From Deltaproteobacteria bacterium RIFCSPHIGHO2_01_FULL_43_49 (GTDB lineage Bacteria > UBA10199 > SPLOWO2-01-44-7), in the NCBI GenBank assembly GCA_001798075.1, contig MGRG01000011.1:136476-188584 (forward strand): a stretch of DNA of 52,109 bases, given 5' to 3'. Of this stretch, positions 5,941 through 46,478 are shown piece after piece. The notes beneath the pieces are model-generated. The model saw only the letters and a list, made by a program, of their open reading frames with translations, did not search any database and was not told the origin of the DNA. The position numbers and the translations under genes are program-made. The first letter of the stretch is position 1; each line of letters starts with the position of its first letter.

Positions 5941-6035
5941 GTGAGAAAGTGACGGGTCCTGTCCCTCCGTATTGCCGTGGGGGCCCCTAACAAAACCCCA
6001 CGGCCAACACTCCGGGCCACCCATTACTTTCTCAC
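5941..6035. ncRNA. Long imperfect hairpin, possible structured RNA
   Basis: Outer arms GTGAGAAAGT (5941-5950) and ACTTTCTCAC (6026-6035) pair perfectly. Inner arms GCCGTGGGG and CCCCACGGC pair around a roughly 12-nt loop, with weaker pairing and one purine-rich internal loop between. It fills the spacer between divergent rnr and the zinc-ribbon gene. It could be a small RNA, a leader structure or a MITE-like relic. It lacks the conserved SRP RNA loop. The structure is well supported; the role is unknown. Confidence 0.45.
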
Positions 6036-6147
6036 CAGTCCCATAGTACTTTATTGCTGAATTATGCTTGCAAAACAAGGCTATTTAGTGTTGGAGGATT
6101 TTTGGGCTTGCCGCAGCTCAAAGCTTTGGCGGAACAAGGAGGGATTT

Positions 6148-6309
6148 ATGGGCAAAGAAGAATGGGAAGAACTTGGGTTTGAAAAAGATGATGTTTGTCC
6201 TAATTGCGGCCAGATGACTGAAGGAGAAAATGTCTGTCCCCACTGTGGTGCCATATTAACGGAAGAAGATGACGAACTAGACGGTTTCCACGAAGACGAA
6301 GAGACTTAA
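6148..6309 (+). CDS. Small double-CxxC zinc-ribbon protein
   Basis: 53 aa from the ATG at 6148, preceded by AAGGAGGG about 5 nt upstream; upstream in-frame starts lack such a site. CPNCG and CPHCG, separated by 12 residues, form a zinc-ribbon knuckle, and the C-terminus is strongly acidic. Such proteins are often annotated only as zinc ribbon proteins and their role is unknown. The stop lies 10 nt before tRNA-Leu, so the two could share a transcript that is processed at the tRNA. Confidence 0.8.
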   Translation: MGKEEWEELGFEKDDVCPNCGQMTEGENVCPHCGAILTEEDDELDGFHEDEET

Positions 6310-6319
6310 AAATGCCTAT

Positions 6320-6403
6320 GCCGAGGTGATGGAATTGGCAGACATGCACGATTCAGGGTCGTGTGCCTGCAAAGGCATAAGGGTTCGAATCCCTTCCTCG
6401 GCA
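6320..6403 (+). tRNA. tRNA-Leu (anticodon CAG)
   Basis: 84 nt. Acceptor GCCGAGG pairs with CCTCGGC, with discriminator A. Anticodon stem CACGA/TCGTG encloses the loop TTCAGGG (anticodon CAG). A class II variable arm (TGCC/GGCA) and a T arm with TTCGAAT are present. The CCA end is not encoded. This is an ordinary leucine tRNA and a useful comparison for the unusual one at 45424-45513. Confidence 0.97.
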
Positions 6404-6445
6404 CAAAACATTTCTAATCGAACCACTCCAGTAGTAGTCATCATT

Positions 6446-6724
6446 CTAATTCATGGGAACAGATGGAGGTGGAGATTCTTCCGGAATCTTGCCAAACATC
6501 TTTTCATAACGAACGATGTTTTCTCCAAGTGCTTTTAAAAGGCGTTTTGCATGTCCGGGGGAGATGATGACACGTGCCCCAACAATCCCTTTTGGTGAAA
6601 AAACCGTCATGCAGTCCAAGAGAAACTCTCCCTGTGTATGCCTGATTGTAATACTATTTGAATAAGTGCCTTTTAGCACATCATCTGGAATGATGATGGG
6701 TAACTCCTTTTTTTCATCAGTCAT
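6446..6724 (-). CDS. DUF3467 family protein
   Basis: 92 aa from the ATG at 6724 (AAGGAGG 7 nt upstream). The pattern Y-N-S...GEFLLDCMTVF...GARVIISPGHAKRLLKALGENIVRYE..FG.I is that of DUF3467, a family of unknown function related in fold to small sporulation or gas-vesicle-associated proteins. The start overlaps the 3' end of the upstream Fic gene by 8 nt, so translation is probably coupled. A Pro/Ser-rich tail ends the protein. Confidence 0.8.
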   Translation of the reverse strand: MTDEKKELPIIIPDDVLKGTYSNSITIRHTQGEFLLDCMTVFSPKGIVGARVIISPGHAKRLLKALGENIVRYEKMFGKIPEESPPPSVPMN

Positions 6725-7979
6725 GGCTTTCCTCCTTGAGTTGGTAGATAAATTTTTTGCCGATTTTTCTGGAAACCAGAAAACCTTTTTTTTCCAGCTC
6801 TTGTAAATCGGTCCGAGCTGTTTCATAAACTATTTTTTGGAGCTTCTGATATTTTTTTACATCAACGTGTGAGATATCCGGACGCAGCAGATACTTGATA
6901 ATACTCATTTGTCTTTTATTTAATTCGAGCGAACGTTTCCCAACTAAATCTTCCAGGTGACTGGCGGTGGCATAGCGTTGGATTGCAAAACGCAAATTAT
7001 CAATGGCTTCTGTTGTAATGTCGCAAGAATAATGAATAAAGAACGTCAAGTCAGTTCTAGTTTCTTCAACATTAAGTATCGCTTGATCATACGCTTTTCT
7101 TTTCTGTCCGATTACGTGTGAAATGGAGAGAAACGGCATGGCATTATAAAACTTGTTTAGATAAAGATAATAAAGCGCGCGCGCTGTCCTCCCATTTCCA
7201 TCCGGAAAGGGGTGAATATAAACAAAATAGAAATGCAGAATGGAAGCCACACTCAATGGGTGAAGAGAGGACGCGTCTGATATCGTAATATCCTTCGGGT
7301 GGAGCCATTGAATAAGATACTCTAAAAACCCTTCTATCTTTTCAGGTGTCGGTGGAACGTAATAAATTCTTAACGCATCTCCAACCACAGTATCATGTTC
7401 TGGGGTTCTGAACTCCCCTGGTTTTCCGTCATCGAGGGCGTTATCTGTCACAATGCGATGGAGGTCTGTGATAGTTTCAATACTGATTTTTTTGTCTGGG
7501 TTAGACAGAATATATTCCATGGCTCTATAATTATTCAGCGTCTCACGTTCACTTCTATCACGTGGAAGTGAATTATGGCGTATCATCTCTTCGGCTCGTC
7601 GACGAGTGGTCTTAGCACCCTCGATCTGAGAAGAAAAGAAAGCCTCCTCCAAAAGGTTATCTTTTTCAATTTTTTCTATGGCCTTAGACGGAATATTTTC
7701 GAAAAGCGTATCATAACCATATCGGTCCATTACACTTTGAGCTTTTAGAATATGTTGTGTCGAACAGAAAAAAAATGGCTTTCCTCCTTGATTCAAAAGG
7801 GGGGTTGGCACCTTATGATGCTCACGCCACTGATGTACCTTGCTAAGAATATCTACCGAATCCCAATCTTTGGGAATCCGCCTCCTTATCTCTAGATTTG
7901 TAAGATATCTTTCATTACAAATCATTACAAAGGAATCTCTGTCATCATTTAATATTGCTTGTTTTAAGTCTATAACCAT
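6717..7979 (-). CDS. Fic-domain adenylyltransferase with C-terminal winged helix
   Basis: 420 aa. The Fic core motif HPFPDGNGRTAR is complete: catalytic His, Asp for metal and the Gly-Asn-Gly-Arg phosphate loop. Family knowledge: such proteins transfer AMP from ATP to Ser, Thr or Tyr of target proteins. Residues about 115-130 contain SSQIEGAK, the (S/T)xxxE(G/N) inhibitory helix, placed before the core as in class II Fic proteins, which keeps the enzyme off until relieved. The last 70 residues look like a winged helix (HVDVKKYQKLQKIVYETARTDL), so it may also bind DNA and control its own promoter. It is followed with 8-nt overlap by the DUF3467 gene. Confidence 0.9.
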   Translation of the reverse strand: MVIDLKQAILNDDRDSFVMICNERYLTNLEIRRRIPKDWDSVDILSKVHQWREHHKVPTPLLNQGGKPFFFCSTQHILKAQSVMDRYGYDTLFENIPSKAIEKIEKDNLLEEAFFSSQIEGAKTTRRRAEEMIRHNSLPRDRSERETLNNYRAMEYILSNPDKKISIETITDLHRIVTDNALDDGKPGEFRTPEHDTVVGDALRIYYVPPTPEKIEGFLEYLIQWLHPKDITISDASSLHPLSVASILHFYFVYIHPFPDGNGRTARALYYLYLNKFYNAMPFLSISHVIGQKRKAYDQAILNVEETRTDLTFFIHYSCDITTEAIDNLRFAIQRYATASHLEDLVGKRSLELNKRQMSIIKYLLRPDISHVDVKKYQKLQKIVYETARTDLQELEKKGFLVSRKIGKKFIYQLKEESHD

Positions 7980-41575: not shown

Positions 41576-44344
41576 TTAGCGCACCTGCGCCATATCTACC
41601 GGAATGACAGGGGGTTGATTGGGGTCATTAATCAGCTGGTACTCAATTAACCGTTTGACCGTTTCATAAGATATTCCGCCGACATAGGGCCTGCCAGGAA
41701 GGCTGAATTCCTGGGTGTTGTAGACCAGAGGGATTTTGCGAAGACTATTATCCGAGCTTTGGGCTATCCTGAATTCTGTGGGACATTGCACCACCCGGTC
41801 GTCTTTACCGTCGCCATCAAAGTCAGCCGCGAAGGGGTGACATTCAGGTCCGCCAAAAACGCCGTTTGGTTGAGGTTGGATAATGCTATAAATGCTTAGA
41901 TCAAATAATGACCAAAAAGAATTTGATGTTTTGATTCCAAGAGAAGCTGGATAAAAGTCGCCAGACACTGGTACTGAATCATTACCCCCAAATGGCATAT
42001 CTACTAAAGCGTCTTCGTAGTAATTTCCTTTGTTTCCTCCATCCAAATCCACTCCCCACCATTGTCCCGCATTGGGAACACCATCCGGGATTTTATAACT
42101 AATAAAAGCAGCTGTAGAACCGCCCGCATCTGCCACTGGCAAATACGCCCACCCAGGCGCAGCAGCCAATTCTGCTGATGTAAGATAGGTCACATTCAGG
42201 TCAAATGTTCCATAATCACTGTGATTGGGCCCACCGAAATCAATACTCCAAATGCCATCACTCTTTGCGACTGCCAAATCGATGTATCCATCTCCGTTAT
42301 AATCTCCAGGCACCGGCCTCCCATATTTTGCCAGTTTTACATCCCGATTGAGTTCGTCTTTGTAAGGTAGTTGAATTATCCAATCCCAGTTCGTGGTTCG
42401 AGGTCCGGGGTTCGAGGTGCGTAACAACTCGTTGTTTGTAAACTTGATATACCAAATACCGTTTTCTTTGTCATAGATGCTCAAGTCGGTGCGCCCATCA
42501 CTGTTGTAATCCTCCGCCACCGGCCAAACCCAACGCCCCCCTATGGGGGAAGTTCCAAGCTCCAAGTTCCAAGCTCCAAAATCATTTTTGGATGACAAAT
42601 CAATTTGCCAACGATCTTTCGTCCAATTCACAAGGTCTGCTTTTTGATCCCCATCAAAATCAAGTGTTTTGGCAATCTCAATGCCGGTCGGCCAAATGGC
42701 GCCCGCGGCGCAATCGTAATCGGATTGGGTGTAGTCAATATCAATGCAAGTAGGTTTGATGGATCCTTGACAAGAAGTCGGATCTTGCAGAAGCAACTCA
42801 ACTTGTGGTGGACCTACCTCTCGCACTTTGTACCCAAGGCTTCTGATATACTGATCCACTTCCTCCGGAATGGGGGTTCCATATCGCCAGCCCGGAGCAT
42901 GTTGATCCAGGTAAGTTTCTATCTCCTTTGTATCTCTCAACACACACTTTGCAGTTTCGGGACAATTTACATCGCTGACCTCGGGATGATGGTAGTTGCA
43001 AACGAGCTGCACACCTCTTTGACGCAACTCTCTTCTTCGATCTCCTTTGATCTCCGTGCCACTCGCAATTTCTGGAAAATCCCTTTGAATGCTGGCCCAA
43101 TAATCATCAAAAATATTTAAAGCCGCATCCATGCGGGGCTGTTTGCCAATATTGCAGCCATTTTCTCCTTCAGCCGGAACACCCGATTGGATTAAAATTT
43201 CGCGGATTTTTTCAGGAGTCAATTGTTTATAATTGCTTCCCATCTGTCGCATTGCATAACTTTGTAAAAGGGCAACTGTACCCGCAATGATTGCCCCCGC
43301 CGGAGAAGTTCCCCCAAAGGCATTAGTATAATAAACATTGGGGTCCCCTGTGTTTGGGTTGGACGGCCCATACCAGTCGAAGCCTTTACCAGGGTAGCTT
43401 GTTGTTACAACACCGGAGCCCCAGGCAAATAAATTAACGCGGCGACCGCAGTTGCCAAAAGGAGCTTTTTCATGATTGGCCCCCATTGAGGCACCCACCA
43501 TGATCGCGCCGGAATCCTGTCTGCTTAAATTGGGCCACCTCAAACCTTCCTCATTCGTCAAATACCTCGTTGTATCCATGTTGATATTGCCGTTGCCAGC
43601 CGGCAAAATTACAGGAACCCCCATGGCGGTTGCGATTTGATATGACTCAAAAGAATCGGGAAAAAATTCCAAGGAAACACATTCCGTTTGATCATCGTTG
43701 TTACAATGCAATGCAGAGCTTGGCCAGGTGCCAGGATTAGACGTTTGTTCTTCCACTAACCATGCAGAAGCACCTTTTCGAATAAAATCAGGTTCTCCAC
43801 CTCCTGGAGGAATACAGGTTTTGCTGTCCGGACTGATTCCGTCAATTCCATGTTCATTGTGCAATCCTATTAAAATGCCCATCACCATTGTGGCATGCGT
43901 ACTTGGCCCATCCCCCATACTGCATTGATGAACAGTAGCAGGAAAATCTTCATGTTTCCAATTTGGCTTTCCTTCTTCGTCTCCAATGTAAGTGTTTTGA
44001 CCTGTTATCCCCCTCATCCAAACCGCACGAATATTCAGATCATCTAGATATCCTTGATTGCCTGTCAAGTCAGGTACGGAATTAATGCCAGGAAAACTGG
44101 ATTTCATTCTTGGATAGATCATTTCAAACAACGGCTCTTTGACAAGTTTTATCAAAAGCTCTTTGGCTTTTGTTCTGTCGGGCTCGGCTATCACAAGATG
44201 CCTTCGCAAATCCGGCAAAGACTTGCCAACAACCACTTCGAGTCTTTTCCGCTCTCTTTCCACCAAAACCGGATCGCCAAATTGATTTTTGAATAAAAGA
44301 GTGGGGTAGCGATCTTTTAGTTGAGACAAAGAATCAAAAAATTT
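41576..44344 (-). pseudogene. S8 peptidase/FG-GAP gene copy 3, 3' part, cut off by the transposon
   Basis: About 920 codons of the mature protein: Asp region GDEEGKPNWKHEDF, His in THATMVMGI (Ala replaces the usual Gly after His), Asn in PAGNGN, Ser in GGTSPAG, then four Asp-rich FG-GAP loops. The signal peptide and first part are at 46248-46478, on the other side of the 1895-bp insertion. Removing the element and one target copy restores the reading LKFFDSLSQL in frame. A truncated product could start in the transposon end but would lack a signal. Confidence 0.85.
44337..44344. repeat. Target-site duplication, left (AAAAATTT)
   Basis: Eight bases identical to 46240-46247 across the element. 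The length fits IS1595-family transposition. Confidence 0.9.
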
Positions 44345-44376
44345 CGGAAGTATGTACTTAGCGCACAAAATAACTC

Positions 44377-44403
44377 TTGACAAGTATGTGCGTTATGTAT
44401 AAT
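44377..44403 (+). promoter_or_regulatory. Transposase promoter
   Basis: TTGACA (44377-44382) and TATAAT (44398-44403) with a short 15-bp spacer, ending 9 nt before the transposase ATG. The very short leader leaves no room for a strong ribosome site, which would keep transposase output low. Confidence 0.6.
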
Positions 44404-44412
44404 AATTAGGCC

Positions 44413-45384
44413 ATGAAAACAAAGCAACACAAAGTAGGTGAGAATAAATCAGAAGTCCTAAAGGCCCTTCCAATCGCCTGTATGGATGAAACCAAAGCGG
44501 TTGAGTTTATAGAGGCTCAAAGATGGGGTGAAATCCCTTGTTGTCCCCATTGTGGAGGTAAAGAAGTTTCACAGATGAAAGATAAAGATGGAAATCGAAA
44601 CGAGCGGTTTTTATGGCGTTGTGCTAACTGCCAAAAAAGCAAGGCCAAGCAATCTCAATTTACTGTCCGTGTAGGGACTGTTTTTGAGTCCAGTCGGATA
44701 CCTCTTAAGTATTGGTGCTATGTTTTTTGGCGTGCCTGTACTTCCAAAAAAGGCGTGAGTGCTTTAGAAATTCAAAGGCAAACAGGTCTTTCTTATAAAT
44801 CGGCTTTGTTTCTTTTACACCGAATCCGTTATGCAATGGCCCCAGAAAATGTTGAATTGTTGAAAGGAACTGTAGAAGTCGACGAAACCTATGTTGGCGG
44901 TAAGCCTAGATATAGAGGCAATAATAAGCGAGGACGTGGAACAAAAAAGCAACCCGTTCTTGCAATGGTTGAACGTGGCGGCAATGTTAAAGCGCATGTC
45001 ATTCCTAACGTAAGCGGCAAAACTCTTAAAACAGCTATTAGAGAAAGTGTTGATAAGTCTTCTCGAATTATGACTGACGAAAACCCTTCTTATAATGGCT
45101 TGCATGATTTTGCTGGGGGTCATCATCCAATCAATCATAGCCTTAATGAATATGTCCGAGGCGACATCACTACAAACACAGTTGAGTCATTCTTTGCCAT
45201 TGTGAAACGTGGTATCAATGGGGTTTATCACTGCGTGAGCAAAAAGCACTTGCACCGCTATCTTTCAGAATTTGAATTTCGCTATAATCACAGGAAGTTA
45301 GAGGATGGCGAAAGGGTGGTTGCTCTTATTAAAAACACACAAGGAAAACGGTTACTTTACAGAGAGCCAGTAAGTTTAAATTGA
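44413..45384 (+). CDS. IS1595-family transposase
   Basis: 323 aa. An N-terminal zinc ribbon (CCPHCGG at 43-49 and CANC at 70-73) binds the transposon ends. The DDE/DDN-type catalytic core (ISXO2-like) has VEVDETYVGGK (Asp157), MTDENPSYNGL (Asp222) and TNTVESFFAIVKRGI (Asn255/Glu258), followed by HLHRYLSEFEFRYNHR. Length and motifs are complete, so the element may still move. It catalyses cut-and-paste or copy transposition with 8-bp target copies. Confidence 0.95.
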   Translation: MKTKQHKVGENKSEVLKALPIACMDETKAVEFIEAQRWGEIPCCPHCGGKEVSQMKDKDGNRNERFLWRCANCQKSKAKQSQFTVRVGTVFESSRIPLKYWCYVFWRACTSKKGVSALEIQRQTGLSYKSALFLLHRIRYAMAPENVELLKGTVEVDETYVGGKPRYRGNNKRGRGTKKQPVLAMVERGGNVKAHVIPNVSGKTLKTAIRESVDKSSRIMTDENPSYNGLHDFAGGHHPINHSLNEYVRGDITTNTVESFFAIVKRGINGVYHCVSKKHLHRYLSEFEFRYNHRKLEDGERVVALIKNTQGKRLLYREPVSLN

Positions 45385-45423
45385 CGGGTATTACGATTGA
45401 TATATAGTCAGAAATAAGAAATG

Positions 45424-45513
45424 TGGGAGTAGCGGGATTTGAACCCGCAAAGGGTGTTAGAGACCCTAGTAGATTCCAAGTCTACAGCGTTTACCGTGTT
45501 TCGCCATACTCCC
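45424..45513 (-). tRNA. Class II tRNA, leucine-type body with UGG (proline) anticodon
   Basis: 90 nt. Acceptor GGGAGTA/TACTCCC (7 bp), discriminator A, U8-G9, D stem GCG/CGC with GG in the loop, anticodon stem GTAGA/TCTAC around CTTGGAA, giving anticodon TGG, a long variable arm AGGGT/ACCCT, and T arm GCGGG-TTCAAAT-CCCGC. Two unpaired bases between the variable stem and T stem and A73 are leucine-type features; serine tRNAs usually have one and G73. Pro tRNAs are class I with C1-G72, while this has G1-C72. CCA is not encoded. Flanks extend the acceptor complementarity (GAAAT...ATTTC). Confidence 0.88.
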
Positions 45514-45550
45514 ACCATTTCTTAGGCGGGGAACCTAGCGTTCCCCGTTT

Positions 45551-45976
45551 TTACTTGAACATCTGCTTTACGTTACCTTCCTCTTTCTTCATCGTTAGTA
45601 AACCGAAAGTATTTGGTGCATCCTTATAAAAAGTGCGCCCCTCCTCCGAATAGCGATTTAATGAACCAACAATTGAAGCCTTATTTGCCCTCGTCAATTC
45701 CTTCCCCAGTGCTTTCAAAATTTCATCGGCGTGCATGGGTTTTCCGCTTGATTTTATAATGTCTCTAGCGTGAGCTAATTCACTTCCTTCCCGTAAAGGC
45801 CTTTCTTGATTTGGTTTATTAGATTGTGGAACTTTTTTGCGTACATCTTCAATCAATTCAAGTTGAGCTAAGATTTTATCGAGTTCTTTTTGAGCCGTAG
45901 CAATGGTAGCCTCGAAAGCCTCTTTCTCAGATTGCAGTTTTTTTTCTTTTTTCGTAAGCTCTGTTTCGTAACTCAT
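45551..45976 (-). CDS. HARE-HTH-like passenger protein of the transposon
   Basis: 141 aa from the ATG at 45976. Residues 1-50 form a charged coiled coil (KKEKKLQSEKEAFEAT); residues about 75-135 read HARDIIKSSGKPMHADEILKALG...YSEEGRTFYKDAPNTFGLL, matching the HARE-HTH winged-helix pattern found in RNA polymerase delta, ASXL and restriction-associated proteins. It may bind DNA, for example the element's ends, or modulate transcription. No strong ribosome site is visible. It is divergent from the 48-codon ORF. Confidence 0.7.
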   Translation of the reverse strand: MSYETELTKKEKKLQSEKEAFEATIATAQKELDKILAQLELIEDVRKKVPQSNKPNQERPLREGSELAHARDIIKSSGKPMHADEILKALGKELTRANKASIVGSLNRYSEEGRTFYKDAPNTFGLLTMKKEEGNVKQMFK

Positions 45977-46030
45977 GGTTTGCACAGGTAGCACAAGCCA
46001 GAATATATGCAAGGACGAAAAATACAAAAC

Positions 46031-46177
46031 ATGAACGATATGGATAAAAAAGGGGTGGGGCCAAAGGAAACTCGCCTTAAAATCAAAGGCTTAGAATGGG
46101 ACAAGGCCATCAAGAAAGCTCTTGATAAAAAACGGCCTGAAAAGGACTGGCCCAAGATGGACAAGAAATCAAAATAA
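46031..46177 (+). CDS. Small basic passenger ORF of the transposon
   Basis: 48 codons (an in-frame ATG at 46007 would add eight). The product is Lys-rich with KETRLKIKGLEWDKAIKKAL and RPEKDWPKMDKK. I recall similar short basic proteins beside transposases of this type but cannot confirm it here. AAGGA lies 15 nt upstream, rather far. It ends 40 nt before the right inverted repeat. Confidence 0.5.
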   Translation: MNDMDKKGVGPKETRLKIKGLEWDKAIKKALDKKRPEKDWPKMDKKSK

Positions 46178-46239
46178 AAATGGTTTGTTTTGAGATAGGA
46201 AGACTCGTAAACTGGCTGTGCGTTAACTACATACTTCCG

Positions 46240-46247
46240 AAAAATTT
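46240..46247. repeat. Target-site duplication, right (AAAAATTT)
   Basis: Matches 44337-44344 exactly. Confidence 0.9.
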
Positions 46248-46478
46248 TAATGTAAGGGCTATCTCACCTTTATAGTTTGGAGAATCGATTGCTTTAACAA
46301 AATCGTTCAAAGTTCCAGGTTCGAGGTTCCAGGTTCCGGTGGGGGAATTATCGGGTTGAGTATTGTTTTCGGAGGGTGTGAAAATATTTTGACTATTTGG
46401 CAGTAAACTTTGCCCCCCACCACAGCCCACCAAAACAGAGAACATCACACTTAGAACAGTAAACGTCTTTTGATTCAT
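46248..46478 (-). pseudogene. S8 peptidase gene copy 3, 5' part
   Basis: The first 77 codons: a signal peptide with lipobox (SVLVGC), GGGQSLLPNSQNIFTPSENN shared with copies 1 and 2, a heptamer-coded GTWNLEPGT segment, then IDSPNYKGEIALTLK. Reading continues a few codons into the transposon and stops. A short lipoprotein could still be exported. Promoter and leader are intact (46504-46559). Confidence 0.85.

Follow-up and report, generated by a model that had tools for sequence, protein, structure and literature searches.

A leucine-type tRNA with a proline anticodon carried by IS1595 transposons: a candidate mobile mistranslation cassette

What purpose might a transposon have for a tRNA whose body belongs to one amino acid and whose anticodon belongs to another? 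This question is raised by a locus in a stretch of 52,109 nucleotides from Deltaproteobacteria bacterium RIFCSPHIGHO2_01_FULL_43_49 (contig MGRG01000011.1; the whole stretch is hereafter called the window), where an IS1595-family element carries a leucine-type tRNA gene with the proline anticodon UGG. An earlier note, made from the sequence alone, had described a canonical tRNA fold with a long variable arm inside an IS1595-type element, and this description was borne out: the minus strand of 45424-45513 matches Rfam RF00005 with 59.8 bits (E 1.6e-10), and the gene lies between the element ends. ARAGORN called it tRNA-Pro(tgg), and the seven-base anticodon loop, CUUGGAA, places UGG at positions 34-36 as had been claimed. 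The 3' flank reads CATT, so that CCA is not encoded.

45424-45513, minus strand: class II leucine-type tRNA, proline anticodon UGG, A73, no encoded CCA (Rfam, ARAGORN, isotype models)
45476-45478, minus strand: anticodon UGG, positions 34-36 (ARAGORN and reading of the sequence)

Three covariance models (Leu, Ser and Pro) were built with the anticodon masked, and the window tRNA scored 69.2 bits with the Leu model versus 60.3 with Ser and 30.7 with Pro. By its best isotype model the body is thus that of a tRNA-Leu; the leucine type proposed for it in the earlier note holds, as does the conflict between isotype and anticodon, the tRNA scoring best neither as Pro nor as Ser. Leucine-type tRNAs with a proline anticodon (NGG tRNAs) number 32 in all, and every one of those searched with all three models scored best as Leu, at 63-83 bits against at most 34 for Pro; the margin of Leu over Ser, 9 bits in the window tRNA, is at least 20 in most relatives. 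The models classified their controls correctly (host tRNA-Pro UGG, 86.3 bits Pro and 34.7 Leu; host Ser, 83.8 Ser and 23.4 Leu).

Individual identity elements agree with this assignment. Leucine identity in Escherichia coli resides in A73, A14, A15-U48, G18G19 and A20a, and the leucyl-tRNA synthetase (LeuRS) does not read the anticodon (PMC9976931). The window tRNA possesses all of these elements and a long variable arm, and departs from a tRNA-Leu in lacking A35, its anticodon being UGG. In a 21-row alignment of NGG tRNAs A14, A15, G18G19, A20a and U48 are invariant, apart from one T73 the same is true of A73, which is present in 31 of 32 NGG tRNAs (with L124 read one base off; our own locus handles are used here and below). 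With tRNA-Pro the window tRNA shares the NGG anticodon but neither C1-G72 nor G15-C48 nor the class I shape, as it has G1-C72, A15-U48 and the long arm; among the NGG tRNAs G72 is missing in 30/32, G15-C48 is replaced by A15-U48, and A37 is found in 23/31; among ordinary Pro tRNAs, 44/49 have G37 and 45/49 have C1-G72. The earlier statement that determinants of the prolyl-tRNA synthetase (ProRS) are absent therefore stands for the window, which lacks G72 and G15-C48, but not for every relative, since L053 and L105 have C1-G72. Annotation by anticodon only misnames such genes tRNA-Pro.

The carrier is a complete element whose parts are as follows.

44345-46239, no strand: complete IS1595-family element carrying the tRNA, 1895 bp, with terminal inverted repeats and exact target duplication
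44337-44344, no strand: left target duplication AAAAATTT, 8 bp, exact
46240-46247, no strand: right target duplication AAAAATTT, 8 bp, exact match to the left
44345-44368, plus strand: left terminal inverted repeat CGGAAGTATGTACTTAGCGCACAA, 24 bp
46216-46239, minus strand: right terminal inverted repeat, reverse complement CGGAAGTATGTAGTTAACGCACAG, 24 bp
44413-45384, plus strand: IS1595 transposase with zinc ribbon and DDE domain, 323 amino acids (aa) (PF12762, PF12760, NF033547)

Membership of the IS1595 family is established by the transposase domains (ISXO2-like DDE domain PF12762, E 9.5e-46, 156 bits; N-terminal zinc ribbon PF12760, 43 bits; NF033547, 205 bits against a cut-off of 75), by the terminal repeats, both of which begin CGGAAGTATGTA, and by the 8-bp duplication. 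As this exact duplication flanks the whole element, the proposal that the tRNA is transposon cargo was upheld. A promoter-like TTGACA-18-AATAAT (44377-44406) precedes the transposase gene, which is present as a single copy in the 2.2-Mb host genome, and the element holds no synthetase-sized open reading frame (ORF) besides it. The insertion splits a protease-like gene into a 5' part (46227-46478, minus strand) and a remainder (41576-44383, minus strand). Outside the element the interrupted gene, which is that of a protease-like lipoprotein, covers 41576-44344 and 46240-46478, and its two parts have kept an open frame.

Does the combination recur? Using the transposase only as query, 84,980 species genomes and the phylum of the window were searched, and viral contigs were scanned with a profile. 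Class II UGG tRNAs were found at four loci of Planctomycetota (L053, L054, L055 and L070) among the species genomes, the phylum yielded one tRNA-bearing element (G026) with a transposase 74% identical to that of the window, and the viral contigs yielded ten further distinct tRNA-bearing elements; plasmid and phage collections returned distant transposase relatives only. L108 and L114, which overlap as copies of a single contig stretch, were counted as one throughout. The tRNA thus recurs in many related IS1595 elements, and in all 16 transposase-found elements with a leucine-type class II tRNA, the window included, the anticodon is that of proline (UGG in 14, AGG in L398 and L413). Their sources are the window's own class, Planctomycetota and viral contigs, so that the cassette spans distant phyla. 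Nine elements, each with its tRNA inside, are bounded by exact 8-bp duplications (window, L036, L053, L055, L126, L146, L395, L396 and L400). The earlier note had mentioned neither this recurrence nor the leader hairpin, the winged-helix-like gene and the other mismatched tRNAs described below.

The converse query combined a leucine-type D arm with UGG and contained no transposon sequence. Among about 20 distinct true UGG tRNAs found with it on viral contigs, 12 have an intact or partial IS1595 transposase in their locus, whereas the same D-arm pattern gave such a transposase beside none of 95 true Leu tRNAs with UAG and none of five true tRNAs with UGC (Fisher p 2e-11 for the UGG association). 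With AGG, one of about five tRNAs has a transposase beside it (L484, on the same contig as L413), and viral-contig NGG tRNAs at L082, L098, L156, L158 and L164 have none in their locus. Its presence in all 16 transposase-found elements suggests that the proline anticodon is under selection.

Some variants were noted in passing. CCA is encoded after A73 in L413:6005-6088 and L400:4755-4840, though not in the window and most others. Leucine-type tRNAs with the alanine anticodon UGC and an encoded CCA occur on viral contigs with no IS1595 nearby (L195:176-258, L217:8981-9079, L232:10897-11037 and L238:88-173), one of them with a very long variable region, and two further viral-contig tRNAs of leucine type without IS1595 (L487:11937-12052 and L511:5034-5157) show very long variable regions and what looks like an AGG anticodon.

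Is the fold itself maintained? Across 21 NGG tRNAs, 99.3% of 420 stem cells are paired and 17 of 20 pairs have changed on both sides; when the partner was slid by one to three columns as a control, pairing fell to 38-48%. Judged from this alignment, the fold of the window tRNA is not a product of chance and its stems appear to be under purifying selection. The earlier note had named debris as an outcome that would overturn its claim, and debris is disfavoured because the changes in the stems of the relatives are compensatory and the fold is intact. With the loop removed, the nearest neighbour lies within the NGG group for 10 of 31 tRNAs versus 5.6 expected, and the NGG bodies are not cleanly separated from ordinary Leu tRNAs as one group; a common origin of all NGG tRNAs is not demonstrated by these figures, and they may stem from a single old origin or from several captures.

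The tRNA is accompanied by further passengers.

45527-45547, minus strand: G+C-rich leader hairpin CGGGGAAC-GCTAG-GTTCCCCG, 13 nt 5' of the tRNA, recurring in relatives
45551-45976, minus strand: 141-aa protein with a long N-terminal helix and a winged-helix-like domain; its gene shares the strand of hairpin and tRNA and lies immediately upstream of them
46031-46177, plus strand: small conserved passenger ORF of 48 aa, GPxxxRLKIxGxWxxAxKKAxxKKRPxxxWP, recognised by visual inspection of the window and G026

Leaders were compared by a stem score over the 70 nt that precede the tRNA, and 19 of 31 NGG tRNAs have a strong stem there, as compared with 7 of 112 ordinary Leu leaders. The hairpin sequence is different in each element, and the hairpin accompanies the tRNA wherever the latter sits, for the tRNA varies in where and on which strand it lies with respect to the transposase gene. 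Read on the plus strand, the window hairpin is followed by TTTTT and could serve as the end of the transposase transcript.

In about half of the loci a protein of 100-170 aa, ending in a winged-helix-like domain, is encoded upstream on the same strand. Such a winged helix-turn-helix (wHTH)-like gene lies upstream in the window, L053, L054, L092, L098, L122, L129, L132, L158 and others, and downstream of the tRNA in L082 and L390. The window protein gave a HARE-HTH match below cut-off (E 0.003), its low-confidence structure model predicts helices at 3-48, 64-77, 83-90 and 96-111, and its PDB matches are weak and mostly to winged helices; the models of two wHTH-like proteins, made from single sequences, were of low confidence. 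No convincing family was found for these proteins in Pfam, PHROGs, PADLOC or NCBIfam, except DUF7669 for that of L158, at cut-off. The small passenger ORF, 48-60 aa across elements, is also present in L053, L054, L055, L070, L074, L087, L129, L154 and L395, and matched no family in the same four collections.

Other mismatched tRNAs occur beside IS1595 transposases. The element at L390:4878-6878, with the exact 8-bp duplication AATTATTA, carries a serine-type tRNA (5941-6032; Ser model, 75.1 bits) with the arginine anticodon UCU, preceded by a hairpin and followed by a coiled-coil/wHTH-like gene (6117-6554). At L449:449-2329 (likewise in L450) the IS1595 transposase is broken, and behind it, a wHTH-like ORF and a hairpin lies a tRNA whose acceptor stem has 8 bp, whose T stem has 4 bp and whose anticodon is UAU. 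This tRNA resembles the 8/4 allo-tRNAs, among whose commonest anticodons is UAU (PMC7609411); its context may explain the link to transposons that the literature records for UAU allo-tRNAs. In L397 a serine-type tRNA (7267-7356) with anticodon CGC and T at base 73 shares the element with the UGG tRNA. The seryl-tRNA synthetase (SerRS), like LeuRS, is blind to the anticodon, and the shared principle, which may extend more widely, would be a body charged by an anticodon-blind synthetase (LeuRS or SerRS) joined to a foreign anticodon. We offer tentatively, and with more doubt than belief, the idea of a general module for addiction or stress in IS1595 transposons. Its active component would be a mischarged class II tRNA that belongs to an anticodon-blind synthetase (LeuRS or SerRS) and bears a foreign anticodon, with the leader hairpin and a linked winged-helix protein as throttles; the Leu/Pro-NGG, Ser/Arg-UCU and allo-tRNA-UAU cases would then be versions of a single mobile mistranslation system in which the tRNA is the toxin. 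A further possible mismatch was seen at L411:6122-6196, where a class I tRNA with a short variable loop and the serine anticodon GGA lies 213 nt behind an IS1595 transposase and is preceded by a strong hairpin.

The host genome gave 42 tRNA matches, among which ARAGORN recognised five Leu (UAA, AAG, UAG, CAA and CAG) and three Pro tRNAs (UGG, GGG and CGG), the latter all with C1-G72. As the host owns these five and three, the element's tRNA is surplus to its set. The host has one LeuRS, of bacterial type, and a bacterial-type ProRS; for an archaeal-type ProRS there was no match above cut-off.

What, then, might the tRNA do? Most probably, though by a narrow measure of confidence, the element carries a mistranslating tRNA cassette in which a leucine body with an NGG anticodon would insert leucine at CCN codons. 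We infer that the gene would be transcribed and its product matured by host RNase P, 3' processing and CCA addition; host LeuRS would then attach leucine to it, and at CCN (mainly CCA and CCG for UGG) the resulting leucyl-tRNA would compete with host tRNA-Pro on the ribosome, the outcome being a low level of proline-to-leucine substitution. The dose would probably be limited by the leader hairpin, by the upstream winged-helix-like regulator in about half of the loci, and by C33 in some members; hairpin, linked putative regulator and C33 together agree with a tRNA whose full dose would be costly, and G33 has a comparable restraining role in a mistranslating tRNA-Ser (PMC11415595). Any benefit that the element draws would probably be conditional, either through proteome heterogeneity under stress or through an addiction-like hold on the host, and a precedent for such conditional benefit is tRNA-ProX, which is toxic in E. 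coli and helpful against carbenicillin (PMC10365949). Several points weigh against mistranslation. C33 replaces U33 in 5 of 31 NGG tRNAs and should weaken decoding, and E. coli is reported to have been unable to use UAU allo-tRNAs in translation (PMC7609411). The close elements L392, L394 and L388 have no tRNA and yet transposed, for which reason the tRNA is to be regarded as cargo and not as transposition machinery. The wHTH assignments, moreover, come from weak profile matches and low-confidence models.

Because the UAU allo-tRNAs proved unusable, some relatives at least may have a role other than decoding, and the tRNA might act as an RNA in transcript processing, in ending the convergent transposase message, in binding the wHTH protein or in titrating LeuRS or EF-Tu. 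The frequent location of hairpin and tRNA between convergent genes agrees with this, as do C33 and the CCA that the window and some others do not encode; a structural role would nonetheless leave unexplained why the anticodon is always NGG although the stems vary freely, and why the LeuRS elements are invariant. Position and strand relative to the transposase gene vary, moreover, while the hairpin stays with the tRNA, and we consider a non-decoding role unlikely, if worthy of attention. More improbable is a proline tRNA in disguise, charged by ProRS through G35 and G36, that would add proline decoding or replace a nuclease-cut tRNA-Pro. G35, G36 and A73 are indeed ProRS determinants (PMC9976931), and L053 and L105 have the C1-G72 pair, but the low Pro scores, the absence of G72 and G15-C48 and the predominance of A37 over G37 speak against it, as do the three Pro tRNAs already in the host and the fact that a class I Pro tRNA, the obvious cargo for such a purpose, was found in none of these IS1595 elements.

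A cassette that recodes itself, with CCN codons of the transposase or a passenger meant as leucine, would be self-serving, and the conserved positions of the small passenger ORF are rich in proline. We regard it as very improbable: in the transposase alignment the proline columns of tRNA-bearing elements are proline or variable in tRNA-lacking relatives, including the zinc-ribbon CPxC, and no conserved leucine column becomes proline, so that recoding of transposase CCN codons finds no support there. As to chance, a captured host tRNA-Leu that drifted would fit the observation that the nearest neighbours of the tRNA bodies are often ordinary Leu tRNAs, for which repeated capture is possible. 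The compensated, intact fold, the proline anticodon in every transposase-found element and the lopsided association with UGG leave this explanation hardly any credibility, and as a general account debris is refuted by the recurrence.

A mistranslating cassette of this kind has partial counterparts. According to a review (PMC7609411), the acceptor domains of allo-tRNAs (Mukai et al. 2017) are 8/4 or 9/3, their identity is serine or alanine, and 35 different anticodons occur among them; like them, the present tRNAs are bacterial, class II and equipped with an anticodon that is foreign to the body and that the synthetase would ignore, but the window tRNA and the 21-row set are canonical 7/5 and leucine-type with fixed proline anticodons, and do not show the 12-bp 8/4 or 9/3 arrangement given there. 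The tRNA-ProX/ProRSx pair of Streptomyces couples a proline body with Ala, Asn or Thr anticodons beside a dedicated ProRS (PMC10365949); this tRNA too is genetically specified and has an anticodon that does not belong to its body, and tRNA-ProX mistranslates and can help under antibiotic stress, whereas here the body is that of leucine, the anticodon that of proline, the vehicle a transposon, and the element has no synthetase gene. The Candida CUG tRNA-Ser(CAG) is likewise of class II with a foreign anticodon, and its ambiguous decoding is limited by an unusual base 33 (PMC11415595), but it is chromosomal and lineage-fixed, while the present tRNA moves with its element and supplements a complete host set. 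In tRNA-dependent lysogeny of phages (PMC10865867), too, there is a mobile element with a tRNA that matters for the element's own maintenance; in contrast, body and anticodon disagree here and no host tRNA is disrupted, the insertion lying in a protease-like gene. With other IS1595 transposons the element shares transposase, terminal repeats and the 8-bp duplication, and it differs from them in its tRNA, wHTH-like gene and small ORF as passengers; for a possible toxin-antitoxin module, the observations are the gene order and the hairpin. The earlier note knew of no description of a mobile element with such a tRNA, and no such tRNA on a transposon came to light in our searches of the literature, although coverage fell short of most subscription journals and the result is an absence of matches, not a proof. 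As far as tested, the window tRNA stands outside the known tRNA families and represents a naturally mismatched tRNA with a transposon family as its new vehicle.

Mistranslating tRNAs of bacteria have so far consisted of a few chromosomal cases with no clear purpose. A mobile and recurrent form with a fixed body and a fixed anticodon box offers many natural replicates and would point to selection for the mismatch itself, and it may connect the allo-tRNAs whose link to transposons has been puzzling with a single family of transposons. The question of who benefits from mistranslation would thereby become testable, and the beneficiary may be the transposon itself.
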